Assembly: GCA_030041005.1 (NCBI GenBank) | Contig: JASHOR010000084.1 | Coordinates: 1-41,874, forward strand | Direction of reading: 5' to 3' | Origin: Xanthobacteraceae bacterium | GTDB lineage: Bacteria > Pseudomonadota > Alphaproteobacteria > Rhizobiales > Xanthobacteraceae | Length of the DNA: 41,874 bases | Shown: one piece after another, positions 573 through 33,729 of the stretch | Layout: each line of letters begins with the position of its first letter | Numbering within the stretch: position 1 is the first letter of the stretch | Made by a program: the position numbers and the translations under genes | The notes under the pieces: model-generated | Told to the model about the DNA's origin: nothing | The model's input: the letters and a program-made list of their open reading frames with translations, nothing else | The model's database searches: none

Positions 573-2240
573 CTACACCACGAGCACATGCACGTGGCAG
601 ATTGGCTTCTTGTTCCAGCGTTCGGCGATGGCCGAGCGCACCGCGCGCTGCACCGCCTCGGCCACCGAGTCCGGGTCGCGCCGACGCGGTTTCGGCAAGG
701 ATTGGAACGCCTCCTCGACTGATTGCCGTGCAATTTCGATCATCGCGGCACTGGCGACGTCGGTTTCCGGTACGCCGGTGAGTTCGATCTCGGGATCGGC
801 AACGAGGACGCCCCTGTCGCTCAATGCCAGCGCCACGCTGACCACGCCGGCAAAGCTCAAGCGGCGACGAGCAGCCACCGTGCGCGCTTCGGCATTAACC
901 AGGAGCGTGCCGTCCTTATAGAGCCGGCCCGCGGGAATTTCGTCGATGATCTCCGCCTTGCCGGGTGCCAAACGTACCAAGTCACCGTTGCGGCAGAGCA
1001 GAACCTGCGGAACTCCGGCTCGGCGGGCAAGTTCGGCATGTTCGGACAGGTGCAGCGGCTCGCCGTGGGCTGGGATGAGGACTTTGGGCCGCACCCAGCC
1101 GATCATGTCGAGCAACTCGCCGCGGCGCGGGTGGCCGGAGACGTGGACCAGATGCGTACGGTCGGTAATGACTTCGACACCCTGGGCGACGAGGCCGTTG
1201 ATGACGCGATCCACCGCCTTTTCGTTGCCGGGAATGGCGCGCGAGGAAAAGATCACGCGGTCGCCGCGCCCAAGCGTGACATCGGGGTGCTCGTCCTCGG
1301 CAATCCGAGAGAGCGCCGCACGCGGCTCGCCCTGGCTGCCCGTGCACAGCGCCAGGACTTTATCGGGCGGCAGATAGCCGTAACTCTCAGCACTGCGGAA
1401 ATCCTGCACCCCATCAAGGTAGCCGGTCTCGCGCGCGACCTGCACCACCCGCTCCATCGCCCGGCCGACCACGACCACTTCGCGGTCCGCAGCGCGTGCC
1501 GCATCAGCGACGGCGCGGATGCGGTCGACATGGGAAGCAAACGTCGTAACCGCGACACGGGCCGGCGCGCTGCGAACGAGTTCGGCCAGGGTCTTGGCCA
1601 CGTCCGCCTCCGAGGGCGAGCGGCCGTCGCGGATCGCATTGGTGGAATCACCGATGAGCGCGAGCACGCCCTGCTCGCCCAGCGCGGAAAGCCGGGCCGC
1701 ATCGGTGACCGAACCGACAAGCGGAGTAGGATCGATTTTCCAATCGCCGGTATGCACCACCGTCCCGACCGGCGTGCGGATGGCAAGCGCGTTCGATTCC
1801 GGGATCGAGTGCGCGACGCTGATGAGTTCGATGGCGAACGGACCGAGTCCGAACTTGCCCCGCAGCGGCACGACATTGACGGGAATTCGCGGCGCGCCCG
1901 GTTCGGCCGCGCGCTTGGCCTCGAACAGCGCAGCGGTGAACGGGGTCGCGTAGATCGGTACGTTCAGGCGCGGCCACAAATCGATCAGCGCGCCCATATG
2001 GTCCTCGTGACCGTGGGTGAGCACCAGACCGAGGATGTTCTTTCGTTCCTCGATCAGATAGCGGATGTCCGGCATGATCAGGTCGATGCCCGGCAAGTGC
2101 TCCTCGGCGGCGAAGGAGACCCCGCAATCGACCATGAGCCATTGTCGCCGACGGCCGTCTCCGACGCCGTAGATCGACAGATTCATGCCGATCTCGCCGA
2201 TGCCGCCCAACGCTGCAAAAACAAGCTCAGTCTGCGCCAT
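573..2240 (-). CDS. rnj: ribonuclease J
   Basis: The 555-residue product is an RNase J, a metallo-beta-lactamase/beta-CASP ribonuclease with 5'-3' exonuclease and endonuclease activity in mRNA decay and rRNA maturation. The zinc-binding HxHxDH motif is visible as LTHGHEDHMGAL (His76, His78, Asp80, His81). The N-terminus TELVFAALGGIGEIGMN is typical. I chose the internal ATG at 2240 because the family starts there; the 26 codons upstream read as basic nonsense and lie inside birA. The gene overlaps the 3' end of birA by 14 bases, which suggests translational coupling. Its place after nuoN-birA is a conserved alphaproteobacterial arrangement. Function is secure from motif and length. Confidence 0.95.
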   Translation of the reverse strand: MAQTELVFAALGGIGEIGMNLSIYGVGDGRRRQWLMVDCGVSFAAEEHLPGIDLIMPDIRYLIEERKNILGLVLTHGHEDHMGALIDLWPRLNVPIYATPFTAALFEAKRAAEPGAPRIPVNVVPLRGKFGLGPFAIELISVAHSIPESNALAIRTPVGTVVHTGDWKIDPTPLVGSVTDAARLSALGEQGVLALIGDSTNAIRDGRSPSEADVAKTLAELVRSAPARVAVTTFASHVDRIRAVADAARAADREVVVVGRAMERVVQVARETGYLDGVQDFRSAESYGYLPPDKVLALCTGSQGEPRAALSRIAEDEHPDVTLGRGDRVIFSSRAIPGNEKAVDRVINGLVAQGVEVITDRTHLVHVSGHPRRGELLDMIGWVRPKVLIPAHGEPLHLSEHAELARRAGVPQVLLCRNGDLVRLAPGKAEIIDEIPAGRLYKDGTLLVNAEARTVAARRRLSFAGVVSVALALSDRGVLVADPEIELTGVPETDVASAAMIEIARQSVEEAFQSLPKPRRRDPDSVAEAVQRAVRSAIAERWNKKPICHVHVLVV

Positions 2241-3048
2241 CAGTCCACGCTTGATCTTCGACCGGGCGCTGCGGCGGCCGGCCGCTGCCTGTGAGCGCAA
2301 ATACGTCTCCGGCCGCAATGGCCTCTATTGTGCCGTCGGCGAGCCGCAACAACAGGCGGCCGGAGGTATCGAGCGTTTCGCCGCGCCCGAGAACCTCCCG
2401 GCCAGGAAGCCTCACCCGCATCTCGCCGCCGAGCCCGTGGGCGCGCTCAAGCCACTCCGATCGAACAGCCGGAAATCCCTCACCGCGGCGCCACTGCCGC
2501 AGCCTCCGCGTCATGGATCCGGACAGCGCGAAGAACAGATCGTCGGCCGAAACTCCGGCGCTGGCGGCGGCGAGATCGGTCGCCGGATACGATGCTTGCG
2601 ACGGATGGTGCAGGCAATTGACCCCGATACCGATTGCGACGACGGGGCATTTGTCCTGCACCTGCCCTTCAATCAGAATGCCGGCCACCTTGGCGGCGGC
2701 GCAAAGCACATCGTTCGGCCATTTGAGCGCCAGCCTTTCACGCAGGTCGGGAGCGCAGTCGAGGATGGCGTCATGGACCGCAAGCGCCGCCACAAACGAC
2801 AATTCCGGCGCTTGGCACACCGGTCCGGGATCGATCAGCAACAGCGTGGCATGGAGGTTGCCGCGCGGTGAAATCCAGGCCCTGCCGCGCCGGCCGCGGC
2901 CGGCCGTTTGCACGCGAGCCGTCACCCACAGCGGTCGCGCGTCGCCGCCGTTCGTGGCGCAGGCGAGCGCCGTCGCATTGGTCGAGGCCAGCGTATCGTG
3001 CGTCACCAGGCGGTAACCGGCGGCAGCCGCGGCTGGGGCGAGGTCCAT
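2227..3048 (-). CDS. birA: biotin--[acetyl-CoA-carboxylase] ligase
   Basis: The 273-residue product attaches biotin to the biotin carboxyl carrier protein through biotinyl-AMP. The signature loop TAGRGRRGRAW spans about residues 48-58. The biotin-binding KWPNDV is at 109-114, followed by KVAGIL, which carries the conserved Lys120. There is no N-terminal helix-turn-helix, so this is the monofunctional class and not a repressor like E. coli BirA. The start at 3048 is chosen because its ATG shares one base with the TGA of nuoN (TGATG), a layout that favours translational coupling. A longer reading up to 3132 would lie inside nuoN. The gene overlaps rnj by 14 bases. Confidence 0.93.
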   Translation of the reverse strand: MDLAPAAAAAGYRLVTHDTLASTNATALACATNGGDARPLWVTARVQTAGRGRRGRAWISPRGNLHATLLLIDPGPVCQAPELSFVAALAVHDAILDCAPDLRERLALKWPNDVLCAAAKVAGILIEGQVQDKCPVVAIGIGVNCLHHPSQASYPATDLAAASAGVSADDLFFALSGSMTRRLRQWRRGEGFPAVRSEWLERAHGLGGEMRVRLPGREVLGRGETLDTSGRLLLRLADGTIEAIAAGDVFALTGSGRPPQRPVEDQAWTDGAD

Positions 3049-26530: not shown

Positions 26531-27307
26531 TTATGGGCTCGCCGGTTCCATCCCCTTCGACTTGATAATGGAAATCGCGTGCGGTCCCGAGAGGAACTGC
26601 ACCAGTGATTTCGCGCCCGCGCCGGCCCCGGCGGCGACGCCGGCGGAATAGACCGTGAAATTCTGAATGGCCGCCGGCAACGGCCCCACCAGCACGGCGC
26701 CCTTCACCGCGAGGATTTCGCTGATTTGATGAATGCCAATTTCGGCCTCGCCGTCGACGACGTGAGCAGCCACCTCGCCGCCTTGCACTAGCACCGCCTT
26801 GGCATTGATGTCCTTGGCGATGCCGAGCCGCTCCAACAGCTTGCCGACATAAATTCCGCTCGAGCCGCCGGCCGCCGGATCGATATAGGCGACCGATTTC
26901 GCCGCCAGCAGTGTCTTCTTGAACGCCTCAACGGTGCTGATGTCGGGAAGCGGGCTGCCCGCCTTCACCACGACGCCAACTCCGGTCTTGGCCAAATCGG
27001 TGCGGCTGCCGGGGATTACCTTGCCCTCTTTGATGAGACCGTCGATCGCTTCGGGCGTGAGCACGGCGACCGCGAAGGTCTCCTGCCCGCTGCCGACCAA
27101 TTTGAGATGTTGGCCGACCGTTCGATAGGTGATCTCGACTTTGTTGCCGCTTTCCTTCTCGTACTGAGCAGCAAGGGCGGTGAGAACCTGCTTGAAGGCG
27201 CCACCGCTGATCACCTTTACCTCCGTAGGCTTGGCAGACTGGGGCATGGCTGATTGCGTCAGTGCAAGCGTGAGTGTGACCGCTGCAACGGTTCGAGCAA
27301 GAGGCAT
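26531..27307 (-). CDS. orphan ModA-like periplasmic substrate-binding protein
   Basis: The 258-residue product is a type II periplasmic binding protein resembling ModA-like molybdate/anion binders. The signal peptide is about residues 1-23 (AAVTLTLALTQSAMPQ). The mature part begins EVKVISGGAFKQVLTALA. Other features are YEKESGNKVEI, AYIDPAAGGSSGIYVGKLL and GEAEIGIHQISEIL. No modB or modC-like gene lies nearby, so it may serve a distant permease or have a sensing role. Many orphan proteins of this type occur in Bradyrhizobium relatives. The ATG at 27307 is chosen because the signal peptide begins there; the frame is open far upstream over the PEBP gene in another frame. Confidence 0.87.
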   Translation of the reverse strand: MPLARTVAAVTLTLALTQSAMPQSAKPTEVKVISGGAFKQVLTALAAQYEKESGNKVEITYRTVGQHLKLVGSGQETFAVAVLTPEAIDGLIKEGKVIPGSRTDLAKTGVGVVVKAGSPLPDISTVEAFKKTLLAAKSVAYIDPAAGGSSGIYVGKLLERLGIAKDINAKAVLVQGGEVAAHVVDGEAEIGIHQISEILAVKGAVLVGPLPAAIQNFTVYSAGVAAGAGAGAKSLVQFLSGPHAISIIKSKGMEPASP

Positions 27308-27348
27308 GAGCGACCTGCCATGGCGCGCGGCGAAGGACGAGCGGCGTT

Positions 27349-27846
27349 CTACCTTTTGAACAGGCCCATGATTTCGGCCCTCGCCAGCGTGTTGAAATGC
27401 AGGTTGAAGCCGACCACGGCCGCGGACGTGTCCGCTTTCACATCGAGTCTGTCGGCTTTCACTGCGAACACCGTAAACAGGTAGCGGTGCGGATGGTCGC
27501 CCTGCGGCGGGCATGGTCCGCCGTAGCCGGGGACGCCGAAATCGGTGCGGGTCTGCAGCGCGCCGGCCGGCAGCGTGCCGCCCGAGCTGCCCGCGCCTTC
27601 GGCGAGTTCGCTCACGCTCGCCGGAATATTCACGACCAGCCAGTGCCAGAACCCGGACCCGGTCGGCGCGTCCGGATCGTAGCAGGTCACGGCGAAACTC
27701 TTGGTGCCCGCCGGCGCATTCGACCACTTCAGATGCGGCGACTTGTTGTTGCCGGCGCAGCCGAAGCCGAAATCGGCCGAGAGGATGAAATCCTTCGGCA
27801 GATAGTCGCCATCCTTGAAGCTGTTGCTCGCTAGGGCAAACGCCAT
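27349..27846 (-). CDS. YbhB/YbcL-family PEBP (Raf kinase inhibitor-like) protein
   Basis: The 165-residue product is a phosphatidylethanolamine-binding protein homologue of the bacterial YbhB/YbcL family. Signature parts are SPHLKWSNAPAGTKSFAVTC, YDPDAPTGSGFWHWLVVNIP, GGPCPPQGDHPHRYLFTVFA. The anion-binding pocket residues Asp and His of DPDAPT...HW and PHRY are present. The biochemical role of this family in bacteria is not settled. I chose the start MAFALASNSF at 27846; a longer frame to 27936 adds residues that are not family-like. It lies 41 bases upstream of the ModA-like gene on the same strand. Confidence 0.9.
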   Translation of the reverse strand: MAFALASNSFKDGDYLPKDFILSADFGFGCAGNNKSPHLKWSNAPAGTKSFAVTCYDPDAPTGSGFWHWLVVNIPASVSELAEGAGSSGGTLPAGALQTRTDFGVPGYGGPCPPQGDHPHRYLFTVFAVKADRLDVKADTSAAVVGFNLHFNTLARAEIMGLFKR

Positions 27847-28544: not shown

Positions 28545-30182
28545 TCAATCTTCCGGAAGCACGCGTTGCAACAGCGCGTCCGCGGTCGCCGCGGCCAGAT
28601 CGGCGCTGCCGTAGAGCGCGCCGCGCGGCCTTGCCACGCGTGTCCGCACGAACGCGTCGGCCACGGCACCGGGCGCGCTCTCGCGCAGCGCCGTCGCGGC
28701 AGCCAAGAGCGCAAGCCTGCCGACCAGAGACCGCGCATCGACCTCCGTCGCCGAAGCGATGTCGACGGCGGCGTCGAGCGTGCCAGCGGAAGCCGCGCGC
28801 GCGAGCGCGGCAACGAGATTGCGTTCCTGCTCGCCCTTGAGCGCGCGCAGTACATCCAGGCACATGACGTTGCCGGAGCCTTCCCAGATGGCGTTGACCG
28901 GCGCTTCGCGATAGAGCCGCGGCAACAAGTTCTCCTCGACATAACCGTTGCCGCCCAGGCACTCCATCGCTTCGAAGGCGAAGGCCGGCGCGGTCTTGCA
29001 GATCCAATACTTGACCGCCGGCGTGAGGAGCCGCGCGTAAGCGGCTTCGCTTGCGTCCTCCGCCGCGCGATCGAAGGCGCGGCACAGCCGCATTGCCAAG
29101 GCAACCGCGCCCTCCAGTTCGAGTGCCATGTCGGCCAGGACGGCGCGCATCATCGGCTGGTCGTAAAGGGGTTTGTGAAAGACGCTGCGATGGCGGCAAT
29201 GGTGCACCGCCTGCGCCAACGCCATCCGCATGAGCCCCGCCGACGCGATCGCGCAGTCAAGCCGGGTGAGTTGTACCATCTGCAAGATGGTGCGGACGCC
29301 GGCACCCTCCTCGCCGACGCGCCAGGCGAACGCGCCGGTGAATTCCACCTCACTCGAGGCATTTGAGCGATTGCCGAGCTTGTCTTTGAGACGCTGGAAG
29401 CGAAGCGCGTTGACAGTGCCGTCGGGCCGAAAGCGCGGCAGCAGAAAGCAGCTCAATCCGCCCGGCGCCTGCGCCAGGACGAGGAACGCATCGCTCATCG
29501 GCGCGGAAAAGAACCATTTGTGACCGATCAGCGAATAGGCGTCGCCCTCCCGGGTCGCCGTGGTCGTGTTAGCGCGCACATCGGTGCCGCCCTGCTTTTC
29601 CGTCATTCCCATCCCAAGCGTCATTCCCGACTTTTCCCACCACGGCCGAAATGCCGGGTCGTAGCGACCGGCGACGACTCGAGGGACGATTTGCGCGGCC
29701 AGCGCCGGCTCGGCGGCAAGCGGCGCCAGCGCGGCGCGGGTCATGGTGATTGGACAAAGGTGGCCGGTTTCCACCTGTGCTGCCATGTAGAAACGCGCCG
29801 CGCGGACGACTTCCGCGGGCGGCGGGGCATGCTTGCCGCTCTCCGTCCAGGTCGAGGCGTGCATCCCGGCCGCCATGCTCTGTTCCATGAAGCGGTGATA
29901 GGCCGGATGGAACTCGACCGTATCGCGGCGAAAACCCTTGGGGTCGAAGATGTGCAGCCTCGGCGTATTCTCGTTCGCCTGCCGCCCCAGCGTGAACATG
30001 GCCGCCGTGCCCCATTGCCGGCCGAATTCCGACAGCGCGGCGGCTTCGTCGCCGGCGCCGTTTGCAGCCACGGCTTGCCGCAGCGGCGTATCGCTCGCGA
30101 ACAGATCGACGTTCTCGAAGGGCGGCGACTGGTTGAAGACCTCGTGGGTATCGAAAGGCGAGCGCGGAGCTTGTGGAAACAT
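28545..30182 (-). CDS. aidB: AidB-type acyl-CoA dehydrogenase
   Basis: The 545-residue product resembles E. coli AidB, a flavoprotein of the acyl-CoA dehydrogenase superfamily that is part of the adaptive response to alkylation damage and binds DNA through its C-terminal domain. Similar segments are THEVFNQSPPFENVDLFASD near the N-terminus, EKQGGTDVRANTT and YREAPVNAIWEGSGNVMCLD. Length agrees with AidB (about 540) and exceeds normal short-chain acyl-CoA dehydrogenases (about 380). I chose the ATG at 30182, with AGAGG about 10 bases upstream. No ada or alkB gene is in view, so regulation by alkylation is not shown. An enzymatic acyl-CoA role is also possible. Confidence 0.88.
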   Translation of the reverse strand: MFPQAPRSPFDTHEVFNQSPPFENVDLFASDTPLRQAVAANGAGDEAAALSEFGRQWGTAAMFTLGRQANENTPRLHIFDPKGFRRDTVEFHPAYHRFMEQSMAAGMHASTWTESGKHAPPPAEVVRAARFYMAAQVETGHLCPITMTRAALAPLAAEPALAAQIVPRVVAGRYDPAFRPWWEKSGMTLGMGMTEKQGGTDVRANTTTATREGDAYSLIGHKWFFSAPMSDAFLVLAQAPGGLSCFLLPRFRPDGTVNALRFQRLKDKLGNRSNASSEVEFTGAFAWRVGEEGAGVRTILQMVQLTRLDCAIASAGLMRMALAQAVHHCRHRSVFHKPLYDQPMMRAVLADMALELEGAVALAMRLCRAFDRAAEDASEAAYARLLTPAVKYWICKTAPAFAFEAMECLGGNGYVEENLLPRLYREAPVNAIWEGSGNVMCLDVLRALKGEQERNLVAALARAASAGTLDAAVDIASATEVDARSLVGRLALLAAATALRESAPGAVADAFVRTRVARPRGALYGSADLAAATADALLQRVLPED

Positions 30183-30304
30183 GACGGTCAGCCTCTTGGT
30201 CGGCGGATCGTAGCATGGTCGGCAATCTTTCCGGTGCAACACTGTCGCGGCCGGCCAAAGCAGGCTTGCCCGCGCGCCGCGAATGGGCCTATAGCAGCGC
30301 TTTA
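30183..30304. promoter_or_regulatory. divergent gap between aidB and pyrB
   Basis: The 122-base gap must hold the start signals of two divergent genes. No clear promoter boxes, attenuator hairpin or uracil-sensing leader (such as a U-tract with leader peptide) was recognised before pyrB. The ribosome binding site of pyrB is weak. Confidence 0.3.
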
Positions 30305-31753
30305 ATGACGAAGGCCCTGCCTCCGACGCGCCATATCATTTCGATCAACGACCTCAGCAACAAGGAGATCGAGACGATCTTCGAGGTCGCGCAGGAGTTT
30401 TTGCAGGAGCTTGCCGATCGGGAAATCCCCTACCGCATCGCGCGCAATACCGACCTCGCGTCCAAATGCGTGCTCGCAACTCTGTTCTACGAGCCTTCGA
30501 CCCGCACCCGGCTCTCGTTCGAAAGCGCGATGCTGCGTCTGGGCGGCGCCAACATCACCAGCGCCGATCCGGCGGTCAGTTCCGCCGCCAAGGGTGAAAG
30601 CCTCGCCGACACGATCCGCGTGATCGGCAATTACGCAGACATCATTGTCATTCGCCACCCGCGCGACGGCGCCGCCCGCCTTGCCGCCGAATATTCGCAG
30701 ATTCCGGTGATCAACGGCGGGGACGGCAGCCACGAGCATCCTACCCAGACCCTGTGCGACCTGTTCACCCTGCGCTCGAAGAAGAAGAGCCTGAAGGACA
30801 TGAAGGTCGCAATTTCCGGCGATCTCAAAGGCAGCCGCACCATCCATTCCTTCGTCTATGCGCTGGCGCGGTTTGGCGCCACCATCGATCCCCTCCCCGC
30901 GCCCGGCATGGAGCTGCCGGAGCACGTCGACCGCAGGCTGCGCGAGGAATTTCACAGCCGCATCGTTTCCAAGGATCCCAGCCGCACGGAAGCCGCCGAT
31001 GGCGGTTCGATCGACGCGCTGTACGTGACCGCCGACCAGCCGCATCAGCTTGCGCTCATTCCCGAGCCCGAGGATTACGGTGTCATTGTCCAGAAGAAGA
31101 TCGACGCAGTTTACGTCACGCGATTCCAGAAGGAGCGCTGGGCCGAAAAGGAGCGGCCCTATCCGAAGATCGATGCCAAATTCATGCGCGACGAGAAGTA
31201 CTCCGAAGCAAGCGTCATGCATCCCTTGCCGCGCGTCAACGAACTGGACGTCTCGCTCGACAAGGACCGCCGCGCGATCTATTTCCAGCAAGCCGCCTTT
31301 GGCGTTCCGGTACGAATGGCGTTGATTTCGCTGCTCTTGCAGCTACACAAGAACAAATCACTGCATCGATTCCCCGACGGCTTCGCCAAGCCCACGCATC
31401 CGATCTACGCCCAGCCAATCGCGACCGGAATTCAATGCGGCAATGCCAACTGCATCGTCTGCGACCCCGCCGAACGACAGTACGCCGCCAACAAGTTCTA
31501 CATCGTCGAAGACGAGGCACGACGGCACATCACCCTCCGTTGCCTCTATTGCGAGGCCGACATCGGCGAGGAGGTCTCTCGCCATTTTGTCGTCGCCGAC
31601 ACGCTGCGAAAGACGTTCGCGCGCGGTCTGTCCGCGCTCTCGCGGCTCGGCGCCGAACGGCTCAAGCATCTCGTCATCTATGGCCACGAAGCCGATGCGG
31701 CGGCGGCGGGCTTTGAGCAACGCGAAGGCGGCAAGAAGGCGCGAGCCGGCTAG
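30305..31753 (+). CDS. pyrB: aspartate carbamoyltransferase with fused C-terminal PyrI-like zinc domain
   Basis: The 482-residue product makes N-carbamoyl-L-aspartate in pyrimidine synthesis. Residues 1-350 are a complete ATCase: HIISINDLS near the N-terminus as in E. coli, carbamoyl-phosphate loop EPSTRTRLSFE (63-73), SSAAKGESLADT (92-103), HPTQ (145-148) and HPLPRVNELD (306-315). The chain then continues with a linker and a zinc-type module, CGNANCIVC (Cys378, 383, 386) and CLYC (Cys413, 416). This strongly recalls the C-terminal zinc domain of the regulatory subunit PyrI (C-x4-C ... C-x2-C). The nucleotide-binding allosteric domain of PyrI is missing. About 65 further residues follow. The stop codon lies in the end of a palindromic repeat. 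No pyrC follows. Catalytic assignment is firm; the role of the fused domain is inference. Confidence 0.92.
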   Translation: MTKALPPTRHIISINDLSNKEIETIFEVAQEFLQELADREIPYRIARNTDLASKCVLATLFYEPSTRTRLSFESAMLRLGGANITSADPAVSSAAKGESLADTIRVIGNYADIIVIRHPRDGAARLAAEYSQIPVINGGDGSHEHPTQTLCDLFTLRSKKKSLKDMKVAISGDLKGSRTIHSFVYALARFGATIDPLPAPGMELPEHVDRRLREEFHSRIVSKDPSRTEAADGGSIDALYVTADQPHQLALIPEPEDYGVIVQKKIDAVYVTRFQKERWAEKERPYPKIDAKFMRDEKYSEASVMHPLPRVNELDVSLDKDRRAIYFQQAAFGVPVRMALISLLLQLHKNKSLHRFPDGFAKPTHPIYAQPIATGIQCGNANCIVCDPAERQYAANKFYIVEDEARRHITLRCLYCEADIGEEVSRHFVVADTLRKTFARGLSALSRLGAERLKHLVIYGHEADAAAAGFEQREGGKKARAG

Positions 31754-31829
31754 TGGAGCGGATTTGACATTCGCTACTCCCCAAGCCACTAGGTCCTTGA
31801 AGCGAATGTCAAATCCAAAGCTCCACCAG
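31750..31829. repeat. palindromic interspersed repeat, copy B (80 bp)
   Basis: The left arm CTAGTGGAGCGGATTTGACA continues TTCGCT (31750-31775). The right arm, 31801-31829, read on the minus strand, is CTGGTGGAGCTTTGGATTTG then ACATTCGCT. The arms are identical over the inner 16 bases, and the right arm has an extra TTT. The left CTAG contains the stop codon of pyrB (TAG at 31751-31753). The 25-base centre holds another CCACTAG. The RNA would form a strong hairpin directly after pyrB. Confidence 0.85.
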
Positions 31830-31841
31830 CACTTGTATTTG

Positions 31842-31917
31842 CTCGTGGTCCTTTGATTCCGACATTCGCACGCGGGCGTGCCGAAACGGAATGCGAATGT
31901 TGGAATCGGACCACGAG
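31842..31917. repeat. palindromic interspersed repeat, copy C (76 bp)
   Basis: The left arm CTCGTGGTCCTTTGATTCCG continues ACATTCGCA (31842-31870). The right arm, 31892-31917, read on the minus strand, is CTCGTGGTCCGATTCC then AACATTCGCA. Again one arm has an extra TTT. The copy faces copy B so that the two TTT-bearing arms lie next to each other, 12 bases apart. The right end lies two bases before the plsY ATG. Confidence 0.85.
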
Positions 31918-31919
31918 GC

Positions 31920-32528
31920 ATGAGCGAGTGGCCGCTTGCGTTCCACTACCTCGCCGCCTTCGTCTTCGGCTATCTCTGCGGCTCAATCCCGTTCGGCGTG
32001 TTGATTACAAAGCTCGCCGGCGTACCTGATGTGCGCTCCATTGGCTCCGGCAATATCGGCGCCACAAATGTTCTGCGAACCGGCCGCAAAACGCTCGCCG
32101 CCGCGACTTTGCTGGGCGACATGCTCAAGGCCACGTTCGCGGTGCTGGTCACGCTCTCACTGTTTCCTCGTGAGGTCGCGTTGGCTGCCGGGCTTGGGGC
32201 GTTCCTCGGCCATCTGTTCCCGGTCTGGCTTCGGTTCAAGGGCGGCAAGGGCGTCGCCACCTATATCGGCCTGCTGCTCGGCTTCGGCTTGTGGATCGCG
32301 CTTGCGGCGTTTTGCGTCACCTGGGCGATCATCGCCGCCACAACCCGCTATTCGTCGCTCGCGGCCCTGCTGGCGAGCATTACCGCGCCAATGGCCCTTT
32401 CCTGGCACGGCGACGTCCCCGAACTGTGGCTCTTTCTCGTCCTGTCGCTGCTGCTGTGGTTGACGCACCGCGCCAACATCGCCCGGCTGATAAGCGGCAC
32501 TGAAAGCAAGATCGGCAGTCGCGGCTGA
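31920..32528 (+). CDS. plsY: glycerol-3-phosphate acyltransferase PlsY
   Basis: The 202-residue inner-membrane protein transfers an acyl group from acyl-phosphate to glycerol-3-phosphate, the first step of phospholipid synthesis. Its three conserved motifs are visible: [13 protein letters not shown]...[33 protein letters not shown] and the C-terminal [17 protein letters not shown]. Five or so hydrophobic helices agree with the family. I chose the ATG at 31920 ([11 protein letters not shown]). An ATG at 31878 in the same frame lies in the palindromic repeat, so it is unlikely. The sequence just before the start is the right arm of that repeat, and no ideal ribosome binding site is seen. Confidence 0.94.
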
Positions 32529-32607
32529 CTTTTTCGGCCATTGTGCCGGCACTTTCGAGGTATGCTCAGGCAACGCCGGAGTACAAGCCGGGGGGCGTTG
32601 ATGCTGC

Positions 32608-33729
32608 GTGAGTGAAAATCGGGACGGCATCCACCTGACGGACGAACAGCGAATCGACTGGCTGCGACTCATCCGCAGCCAGAACGTCGGTCCGCGCACC
32701 TTTCGCGCCCTCATCAACCATTTCGGCGGTGCGCGCGCGGCGCTTGAAGCGCTGCCGGGGCTGGCACGGCGGGGCGGACGCGGCACCACACCGCAGATTT
32801 GCTCACGCTCACAGGCCGAACGCGAGATCGACGCCGCGGATAAGATGGGCGCGCGGTTCGTCGCTGTCGGGGAAGCGGGCTATCCGAGACTACTTCAGGC
32901 CATCGACGATCGGCCTCCGCTTCTGGCGCTGCGCGGCAATCCCGATGCGCTTACAAGACCGGCCGCCGCCATCGTCGGCTCCCGCAACGCCTCGGGGGCG
33001 GGCCTTAAGATCACGCAGCAGTTGGCGCGCGGACTAGCTGCAGCCGGCTTTGTCACGGTCTCCGGCTTGGCGCGCGGCATTGACGCCGCGGCGCACCGGG
33101 CAAGCCTCGAAAGCGGAACGATCGCCGTGCTTGCGGGTGGACTCGATCGCCTCTATCCGCCCGAGCACGCCCCACTGGCCGACGCCATTCTGGCCGCCGG
33201 CATCGTGCTGTCCGAAATGCCGTTCGGCTGGGAACCGCGGGCGCGCGATTTCCCCCGGCGCAACAGGTTGATTTCCGGCATCGCGCTCGGCATCGTCATT
33301 GTGGAAGCGGCCAAGCGCTCGGGCTCGCTGATCAGCGCGCGACTTGCGCTGGAACAGGGTCGCGAGGTCTTTGCCGTTCCGGGATCGCCGCTCGATCCGC
33401 GCGCGGAAGGCACCAACGGGCTGCTCAAGCAAGGCGCAACGCCGGTGACGGAAGCTGCCGATGTCGTCGCAGCGCTGCAGCCGATCATCGGCCGCGAACT
33501 GCCGGCGCATGAACTGAAATCCGCCGATGACGGGCCGCCTGAATACGACGAACCGGCGCCGGACGAACGCACGCGCGTCATCGGGCTGCTCAGTCCGGTC
33601 CCGATTTCGATCGACGATCTCGTTCGACTGTCCAAGACGTCGTCGCGCGTGGTCCGTATCGTGCTCCTGGAACTCGAAATCGCCGGACGCCTGGAGCGCC
33701 ACGGCGGCGGCCTGGTGTCACTCGTCTAG
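32608..33729 (+). CDS. dprA: DNA processing protein DprA
   Basis: The 373-residue product is DprA/Smf, which binds incoming single-stranded DNA and loads RecA during natural transformation. It is also conserved in bacteria without known competence. The Rossmann-like core has [52 protein letters not shown] and [21 protein letters not shown]-terminal winged-helix-like domain (about 310-373) is present. The start is GTG at 32608, with GGGGGG about 11 bases upstream. It follows plsY and precedes a lytic transglycosylase by 11 bases. Confidence 0.93.

Follow-up and report, generated by a model that had tools for sequence, protein, structure and literature searches.

Aspartate transcarbamoylase (ATCase) is a textbook case of allostery that carries out the first committed step of pyrimidine synthesis, and its regulatory chain PyrI consists of a zinc half, which docks, and a nucleotide half, which senses. 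Of what use is the docking half to the enzyme when it comes by itself? This question is raised by an open reading frame (ORF) at positions 30305-31753 of a 41,874-nucleotide stretch of DNA from a Xanthobacteraceae bacterium (contig JASHOR010000084.1, assembly GCA_030041005.1), referred to below as the window. The ORF encodes an ATCase catalytic chain (PyrB) that runs on into a PyrI-type zinc domain. We regard it as rather probable that its product is a class-B-related ATCase whose catalytic trimer has the zinc domain docked onto it in cis, yielding a clamped enzyme that lacks the PyrI-type control by cytidine triphosphate (CTP) and adenosine triphosphate (ATP).

An ATCase chain with a PyrI-type zinc domain

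The layout of the chain is given below; the AlphaFold model of all 482 residues has a mean predicted local distance difference test score (pLDDT) of 81.3 and a predicted template modelling score (pTM) of 0.83.

30305..31753, plus strand: ATCase with a C-terminal PyrI-type zinc domain and an Ada-N-like module, 482 amino acids (translation, Pfam/NCBIfam, AlphaFold model)
30329..31342, plus strand: catalytic part, approximately residues 9-346; it equals E. coli PyrB at the 11 active-site positions compared
30959..31090, plus strand: insert, about residues 219-262, preceding the aspartate-binding motif Arg273-x-Gln275; pLDDT below 50 at residues 224-263
31010..31030, plus strand: IDALYVT, residues 236-242, a second copy of the strand IDAVYVT (residues 266-272, 31100-31120)
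31343..31414, plus strand: linker, residues 347-370, with a pLDDT of about 91
31415..31573, plus strand: PyrI_C-type zinc domain, residues 371-423 (profile searches and fold matches)
31436-31438, 31451-31453, 31541-31543 and 31550-31552, plus strand: presumed zinc ligands Cys378, Cys383, Cys413 and Cys416
31583..31735, plus strand: Ada-N-like module lacking zinc cysteines, approximately residues 427-477 (hhalign, Foldseek); residues 477-482 are of low confidence

An earlier note on this DNA had described a full ATCase here, and the ORF indeed reads through to 482 residues. Pfam places OTCace_N at residues 9-157 and OTCace at residues 264-343, and the aspartate transcarbamoylase model TIGR00670 is passed with 285.5 bits (cut-off 236.95). 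Relatives were collected by scanning a species-genome collection with two tail peptide patterns; counts over 48 family members exclude near-duplicates and fragments (L020, L047, L081, L106), alignment A3 was made without L041, L047, L050, L074 and L081, and alignment A4 without L047, L050, L051, L070 and L074. The eleven residues that we take to make up the E. coli active site (Ser52, Arg54, Thr55, Ser80, Lys84, Arg105, His134, Gln137, Arg167, Arg229 and Gln231, in E. coli numbering) are unchanged in the window and in all 48 members.

The source genome (4.9 Mb, 95% complete) holds two OTCace_N matches, namely the ORF at 30305-31753 and an ornithine carbamoyltransferase (TIGR00658, 366.4 bits against a cut-off of 280.85), and a second ATCase was not found by this search. 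We therefore set aside the view that the ORF is an extra copy beside a resident pyrB; judged from the gene content, its product is the ATCase of the cell. Nor is the fusion an assembly accident, since it recurs: 17 of the 20 genomes surveyed in the genus, the source genome included, carry a PyrB-zinc chain (the three misses are 60-85% complete), as do 3 of 17 further genomes of the family and, in the same draw, none of 24 genomes from elsewhere in the order. The PyrB-zinc architecture is thus real and conserved, a variant of a known enzyme whose mechanism we infer.

The pattern C-x4-C ... C-x2-C is present in all 48 members. Five cysteines (378, 383, 386, 413 and 416) had been listed by the earlier note; each stands at its position, and Cys386 drops out of the conserved set, as this position is Cys in 5 of 37 readable members (11 of the 48 are unreadable by the pattern used). 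The PyrI_C profile falls just under its cut-off of 23.4 bits when run on the whole protein (E 7.1e-5, 23.0 bits) and passes it on the tail alone (E 1.4e-5, 25.3 bits); it was found in each of the 44 family tails scanned (E up to 1), with a best value of 2.3e-12. TIGR00240 aligned at model positions 99-145 of 150, and its 23.1 bits lie far below the whole-protein cut-off of 148.55 because only the zinc end is present.

All nine matches of a single-sequence search of the PDB were PyrI chains at E about 1. A family profile retrieved 12 PDB sequences at E <=0.001, every one of them a PyrI chain (best 6.1e-8), and ferredoxins came next at E 0.3. For structure searches the tail was folded separately, as the catalytic domain fills the match list when the full model is used; the best PDB matches of the tail model were PyrI chains, and its fold matched PyrI 102-153. 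On the evidence of these profiles and models, the zinc domain is homologous to the C-terminal domain of PyrI, in agreement with the earlier note.

That note had also stated that the allosteric half is missing. The PyrI nucleotide-binding domain (PF01948) gave no match in the protein and none in the source genome, the sole genome checked for this sensor, with a control that was positive in 7 of 14 known genomes; within this scope, the statement holds. Because the PyrI sensor domain is absent, PyrI-type control by CTP and ATP would be absent too, and its loss is likely from the sequence.

The predicted docking surface

In the mechanism that we favor, the zinc domain would fold around Zn2+ and dock on a carbamoyl-phosphate domain, either in the same chain or in the neighboring one, at the surface used by PyrI, with Asn380, Asn382 and Glu417 lying opposite Asp121 and Arg125; once docked, it would clamp and stabilize the active trimer. 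In the R state of the E. coli enzyme, r-Asn111 bonds c-Glu109 (PMC6056424). PMC6981877 places r-Asn111, r-Asn113, r-Glu142 and r-Lys143 at the catalytic-regulatory interface and pairs c132 with r142 and r143.

Most of these positions are kept on the zinc side of the family: r111 is Asn in 47 of 48 members, r113 is Asn in 39 of 48, and r142 is Glu in 47 and Asp in the remaining one. On the catalytic side, Asp or Glu occupies c109 in all 48 family members and all 24 class-B-type PyrBs (21 gammaproteobacterial, two alphaproteobacterial and one from Woesearchaeota), compared with 0/14 class-A-type PyrBs of Alphaproteobacteria; the corresponding figures for Arg or Lys at c113 are 47/48, 22/24 and 1/14. 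Among ten further PyrBs of other types, c109 is acidic in one of the nine rows listed. The docking surface therefore tracks the presence of the zinc domain.

Three points weigh against this account. Position r143 is Lys in only 3 of the 48 members, c132 is His in all 48, and shared ancestry could be a partial source of the pattern of docking residues. What we infer from the alignments is docking in cis at a PyrI site that has been partly remodeled.

The C-terminal module and the insert

For the last 65 or so residues, which the earlier note took to be of unknown fold, a relative can be named. Apart from PyrI_C, no Pfam family matches the tails more often than Ada_Zn_binding, with 23 of 44 at E up to 1 and a best value of 2.8e-6; AraC_binding comes next with 3 of 44. 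The module of the relative L057, searched by itself, exceeds the Ada_Zn_binding cut-off (E 5e-7), and the window's own module has no Pfam match. Aligned by hhalign to E. coli Ada 26-73, the alphaproteobacterial modules reach a probability of 92.6 and the Chloroflexota-type modules 71.5; the two sets align with each other at 95.3. When the tail model of the window was compared with the PDB by Foldseek, PyrI came first and N-Ada (1u8b) second, at probability 0.97 and E 0.16; among the 50 PDB matches listed, those that were neither PyrI nor N-Ada had probabilities <=0.30. The residues at the end of the chain thus resemble the N-terminal domain of the DNA-repair protein Ada, as far as profiles and models can tell. 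The four zinc cysteines of Ada are not kept: downstream of the CxYC motif there is no Cys in 43 of the 48 members, one in four and two in one.

A second feature, absent from the earlier note, is an insert of about 40 residues directly before the aspartate-binding Arg273-x-Gln275. Its IDALYVT is identical to the IDAVYVT strand at six of seven residues, and none of 200 shuffles did as well for the window; the likeness is weaker in L049, L066, L073 and L079 (3/7, equaled by 35 to 71 of 200 shuffles). The pattern DAxYxTPxxPHQ occurs in many relatives, and D237, A238, Y240, T242, P246, H247 and Q248 are conserved in >=90% of 44 members.

Insert motif and Ada-like module occur together in 46 of the 48 members, and both are absent from the other two, L070 and L105, which keep the zinc domain. 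The other 32 alphaproteobacterial members have L105 as their sister, and L070 is the sister of the Chloroflexota-type group (weak support, 47); from these positions in the tree, insert and module came or went as a pair, possibly on two occasions. In L105, the chain of about 390 residues without insert and module (1501-2643, minus strand; genome G749) sits in a ruvX-plsY-dprA slot. Insert and module are probably one packing unit near the aspartate-binding loop, a unit that may regulate, stabilize or bring trimers together.

Alternative readings

Control may have been replaced rather than abolished. Insert and module would then be a new device that senses a ligand or a protein and acts on the aspartate-binding loop, a reading to which their joint presence or absence (46/48 and 2/48), the location of the insert just before Arg273 and Gln275, and its seven highly conserved positions all lend weight. 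No ligand site was recognized in the module, its Ada-type zinc cysteines are gone, and the insert is modeled at low confidence; we think such a device possible but on the doubtful side. A fuller version, in which the PyrI zinc domain serves as the cis clamp, the Ada-like module and the duplicated strand sense a signal other than CTP or ATP, and a DNA-repair fold has been recruited to rebuild the control of the enzyme, strikes us as doubtful outright.

A higher-order assembly, in which zinc domain and Ada-like module bridge two trimers into a hexamer of like chains, is unlikely in our opinion. The position of E. coli Tyr165 is Gly in 31 of the 33 alphaproteobacterial members, and Asp236 is not kept; both residues presumably take part in the contacts between trimers of the E. 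coli enzyme. PyrI dimerizes through its nucleotide-binding domain, the half that was not found here, and the two members without an Ada-like module still keep the zinc domain. These observations tell against the locked assembly that the earlier note had envisaged. In its favor, the extra module is kept in 46/48 members, and partner chains join two trimers in the E. coli and class A enzymes (PMC7053772). A loss at E. coli position Tyr240 was considered and set aside, since the alignment gap is ambiguous and the conserved Tyr286 may be its equivalent.

The changes at r143 and c132 would suit a zinc domain that is only a fold-stabilizing relic without specific docking; the remaining docking residues persist on both sides, those on the catalytic side being absent from the class-A-type PyrBs of Alphaproteobacteria, and we judge the relic quite improbable. 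A chance or unrelated zinc ribbon, to which one might be led by the whole-protein PyrI_C score just under its cut-off and by single-sequence PDB matches no better than E about 1, is ruled out for practical purposes by PyrI_C in all 44 tails and by sequence, profile and fold searches of the PDB that each put PyrI first.

Distribution and ancestry

The tail scan recovered 48 loci: 31 alphaproteobacterial (15 named Xanthobacteraceae), 14 from Chloroflexota (10 named Dehalococcoidia or Dehalococcoidales), one from an unassigned bacterium, one from Poribacteria (a 3.6-kb contig) and one from Woesearchaeota, which is a separate PyrI gene of 179 residues. Divergent members are under-counted because the scan used two tail peptide patterns. 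PyrB-zinc fusions are rare in even draws of genomes. PyrI_C matched in 5 of 397 genomes of the order, two of which (G000 and G099) proved on reading to hold a PyrB-zinc fusion, and in 4 of 385 genomes of the class, where the tail profile matched in 3 of 376.

A tree of 97 sequences and 303 columns was computed under LG+G4 with 1000 ultrafast bootstraps, and a second one under a mixture model with a quick search. In the LG+G4 tree the PyrB-zinc (PyrB-Zn) chains of Alphaproteobacteria, of the Chloroflexota type and of Poribacteria form one clade (support 100). The next branches are the PyrBs of an alphaproteobacterial family, f73, whose PyrI_C matches lie on separate short frames (99), and then class B with Woesearchaeota (75); the class-A-type PyrBs of Alphaproteobacteria lie far from the clade. 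The alphaproteobacterial PyrB-Zn group is kept in both trees (100), and the Chloroflexota-type group is weakly supported (73 under LG+G4, 0 under the mixture model). Finer placement is unsure because of the long branches L070, L079, L103 and L104.

Among 299 genomes of the phylum, the source genome included, the best match of the catalytic part outside its own genome had E 1.7e-50, versus 1e-230 within it. This comparison and the tree bear out the earlier description of the catalytic part as enterobacterial-like, in the sense of class-B-like. The same note had suggested transfer or an ancient paralogue. Direct transfer from Enterobacteria is not favored, since it is the PyrB-Zn group of Chloroflexota and Poribacteria that branches closest.

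A further chain was noticed in this family f73 (L106, 1498-2136, minus strand, on a 2.2-kb stretch of genome G681). There, PyrB runs directly into a four-cysteine zinc domain, with neither insert nor Ada-like module, and is followed by a pyrC homologue. This chain is perhaps an independent fusion; its metagenome-assembled genome (MAG) has another PyrI_C match, in a short frame on a second contig.

The chromosomal slot

In the window, the ATCase gene has the following neighbors.

28545..30242, minus strand: aidB-like acyl-CoA dehydrogenase, bordering the slot on the left (AidB_N 1.6e-57, Pfam)
31878..32528, plus strand: plsY, right border of the slot (Pfam)
32608..33729, plus strand: dprA, next conserved neighbor (Pfam)

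Many relatives have aidB or ruvX at the left border. Within the order, each of nine ordinary-type loci (L025-L033) has pyrC after pyrB, and the arrangement pyrB-pyrC-plsY was read in all six with enough flank (L086-L091; L086 and L031 are the same locus). The HxH metal motif is missing from the pyrB-linked pyrC in 14 of 15 rows (13 different genes), the remaining one, L090, being unreadable by the pattern used; ten unlinked pyrC copies have HVH (three) or QVH (seven). From the linked copies, the ordinary alphaproteobacterial enzymes therefore look like class A2 ATCases, in which PyrB is accompanied by a pseudo-dihydroorotase (pseudo-DHOase).

Where the chain is PyrB-Zn, plsY follows in 29 of the 30 alphaproteobacterial loci with enough flank, 28 times within 289 bp and in L041 after 1.7 kb; L059 has no plsY match, with dprA present. 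No pyrC match was seen in the fetched stretches of the 33 alphaproteobacterial PyrB-Zn loci. By gene order, this looks like a one-gene-for-two swap in the slot of pyrB and its linked pyrC, in which one polypeptide would have replaced the two-gene PyrB/pseudo-DHOase enzyme of Alphaproteobacteria. The Chloroflexota-type loci have a pyrC homologue in 12 of 15 fetched stretches (none was seen in L067, in L069 with its little flank, or in L079), and the six read all keep HCH.

The source genome has an unlinked DHOase-like gene (C74) that exceeds the TIGR00857 cut-off with 356.6 bits, allantoinase being close at 348.9. A TIGR00857 dihydroorotase over the cut-off was not seen in 9 of 20 PyrB-Zn genomes, which may be incomplete MAGs or have another type of dihydroorotase.

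Between the ATCase gene and plsY, at 31760-31816, lies a perfect 16-bp inverted repeat, GGATTTGACATTCGCT, with its arms 25 bases apart. It is a copy of an interspersed palindromic repeat with 93 half-sites in the genome at <=1 mismatch (44 forward, 49 reverse; control pattern, 0). A known RNA leader was sought in 29500-33000 and no Rfam match at gathering score was obtained; a check of the defence-system reading gave no PADLOC match. Further upstream, at 26531-27727 on the minus strand, a ModA-like protein of 398 residues stays under its cut-off (46.7 bits against 62.5), with a match that begins at residue 178.

Comparison with known systems

The class B pair PyrB and PyrI of E. coli shares with the chain studied here a neighboring branch of the tree, a homologous zinc domain and most docking residues on both sides; here, however, there is one chain, no nucleotide-binding domain was found, and an insert and an Ada-like module are added. 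The PyrB-PyrI fusion of Thermotoga (NF009916/PRK13376) likewise has catalytic and regulatory parts in a single chain, but with both PyrI domains, whereas only the zinc half is present here; NF009916 (525 positions) reaches 94.5 bits against a cut-off of 800, in the catalytic part only, and the chain is not a Thermotoga-type fusion. By the title of Chen et al. 1998, as cited in PMC4581275, the Thermotoga fusion is an allosteric enzyme. The class A2 PyrB and pseudo-DHOase of Pseudomonas (PMC7053772) resemble our case in position, as the two genes of this type hold the same slot in related Alphaproteobacteria. They differ in that the catalytic branch is distant and the slot studied here contains no partner gene. 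The clade also suggests that a one-gene ATCase took over from a two-gene ATCase at a single place in the chromosome. No description of the PyrB-zinc-Ada architecture was found in the open-access literature searched; subscription papers were mostly outside this search, and we do not claim that the architecture is absent from print.

A counterpart to the proposed clamp is known from the laboratory. Markby, Zhou and Schachman reportedly described in 1991 a complex of the E. coli catalytic trimer with the isolated zinc peptide of PyrI, that is, a catalytic trimer with a zinc domain and without the nucleotide domain. Their complex consists of separate chains, while the present arrangement is covalent, natural and furnished with extra modules. 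The clade appears to part the halves of PyrI naturally, with the docking half in cis in Alphaproteobacteria, Chloroflexota and one Poribacteria MAG, and it would allow the effect of docking by itself on a catalytic trimer to be studied with no need for engineered fragments. The N-terminal domain of Ada (PF02805), finally, is alike in sequence and fold to residues 427-477 and their relatives, but the four zinc cysteines, the methyltransferase and the AraC part are all absent here, which suggests that an Ada-type fold has been reused in metabolism, apparently without zinc.
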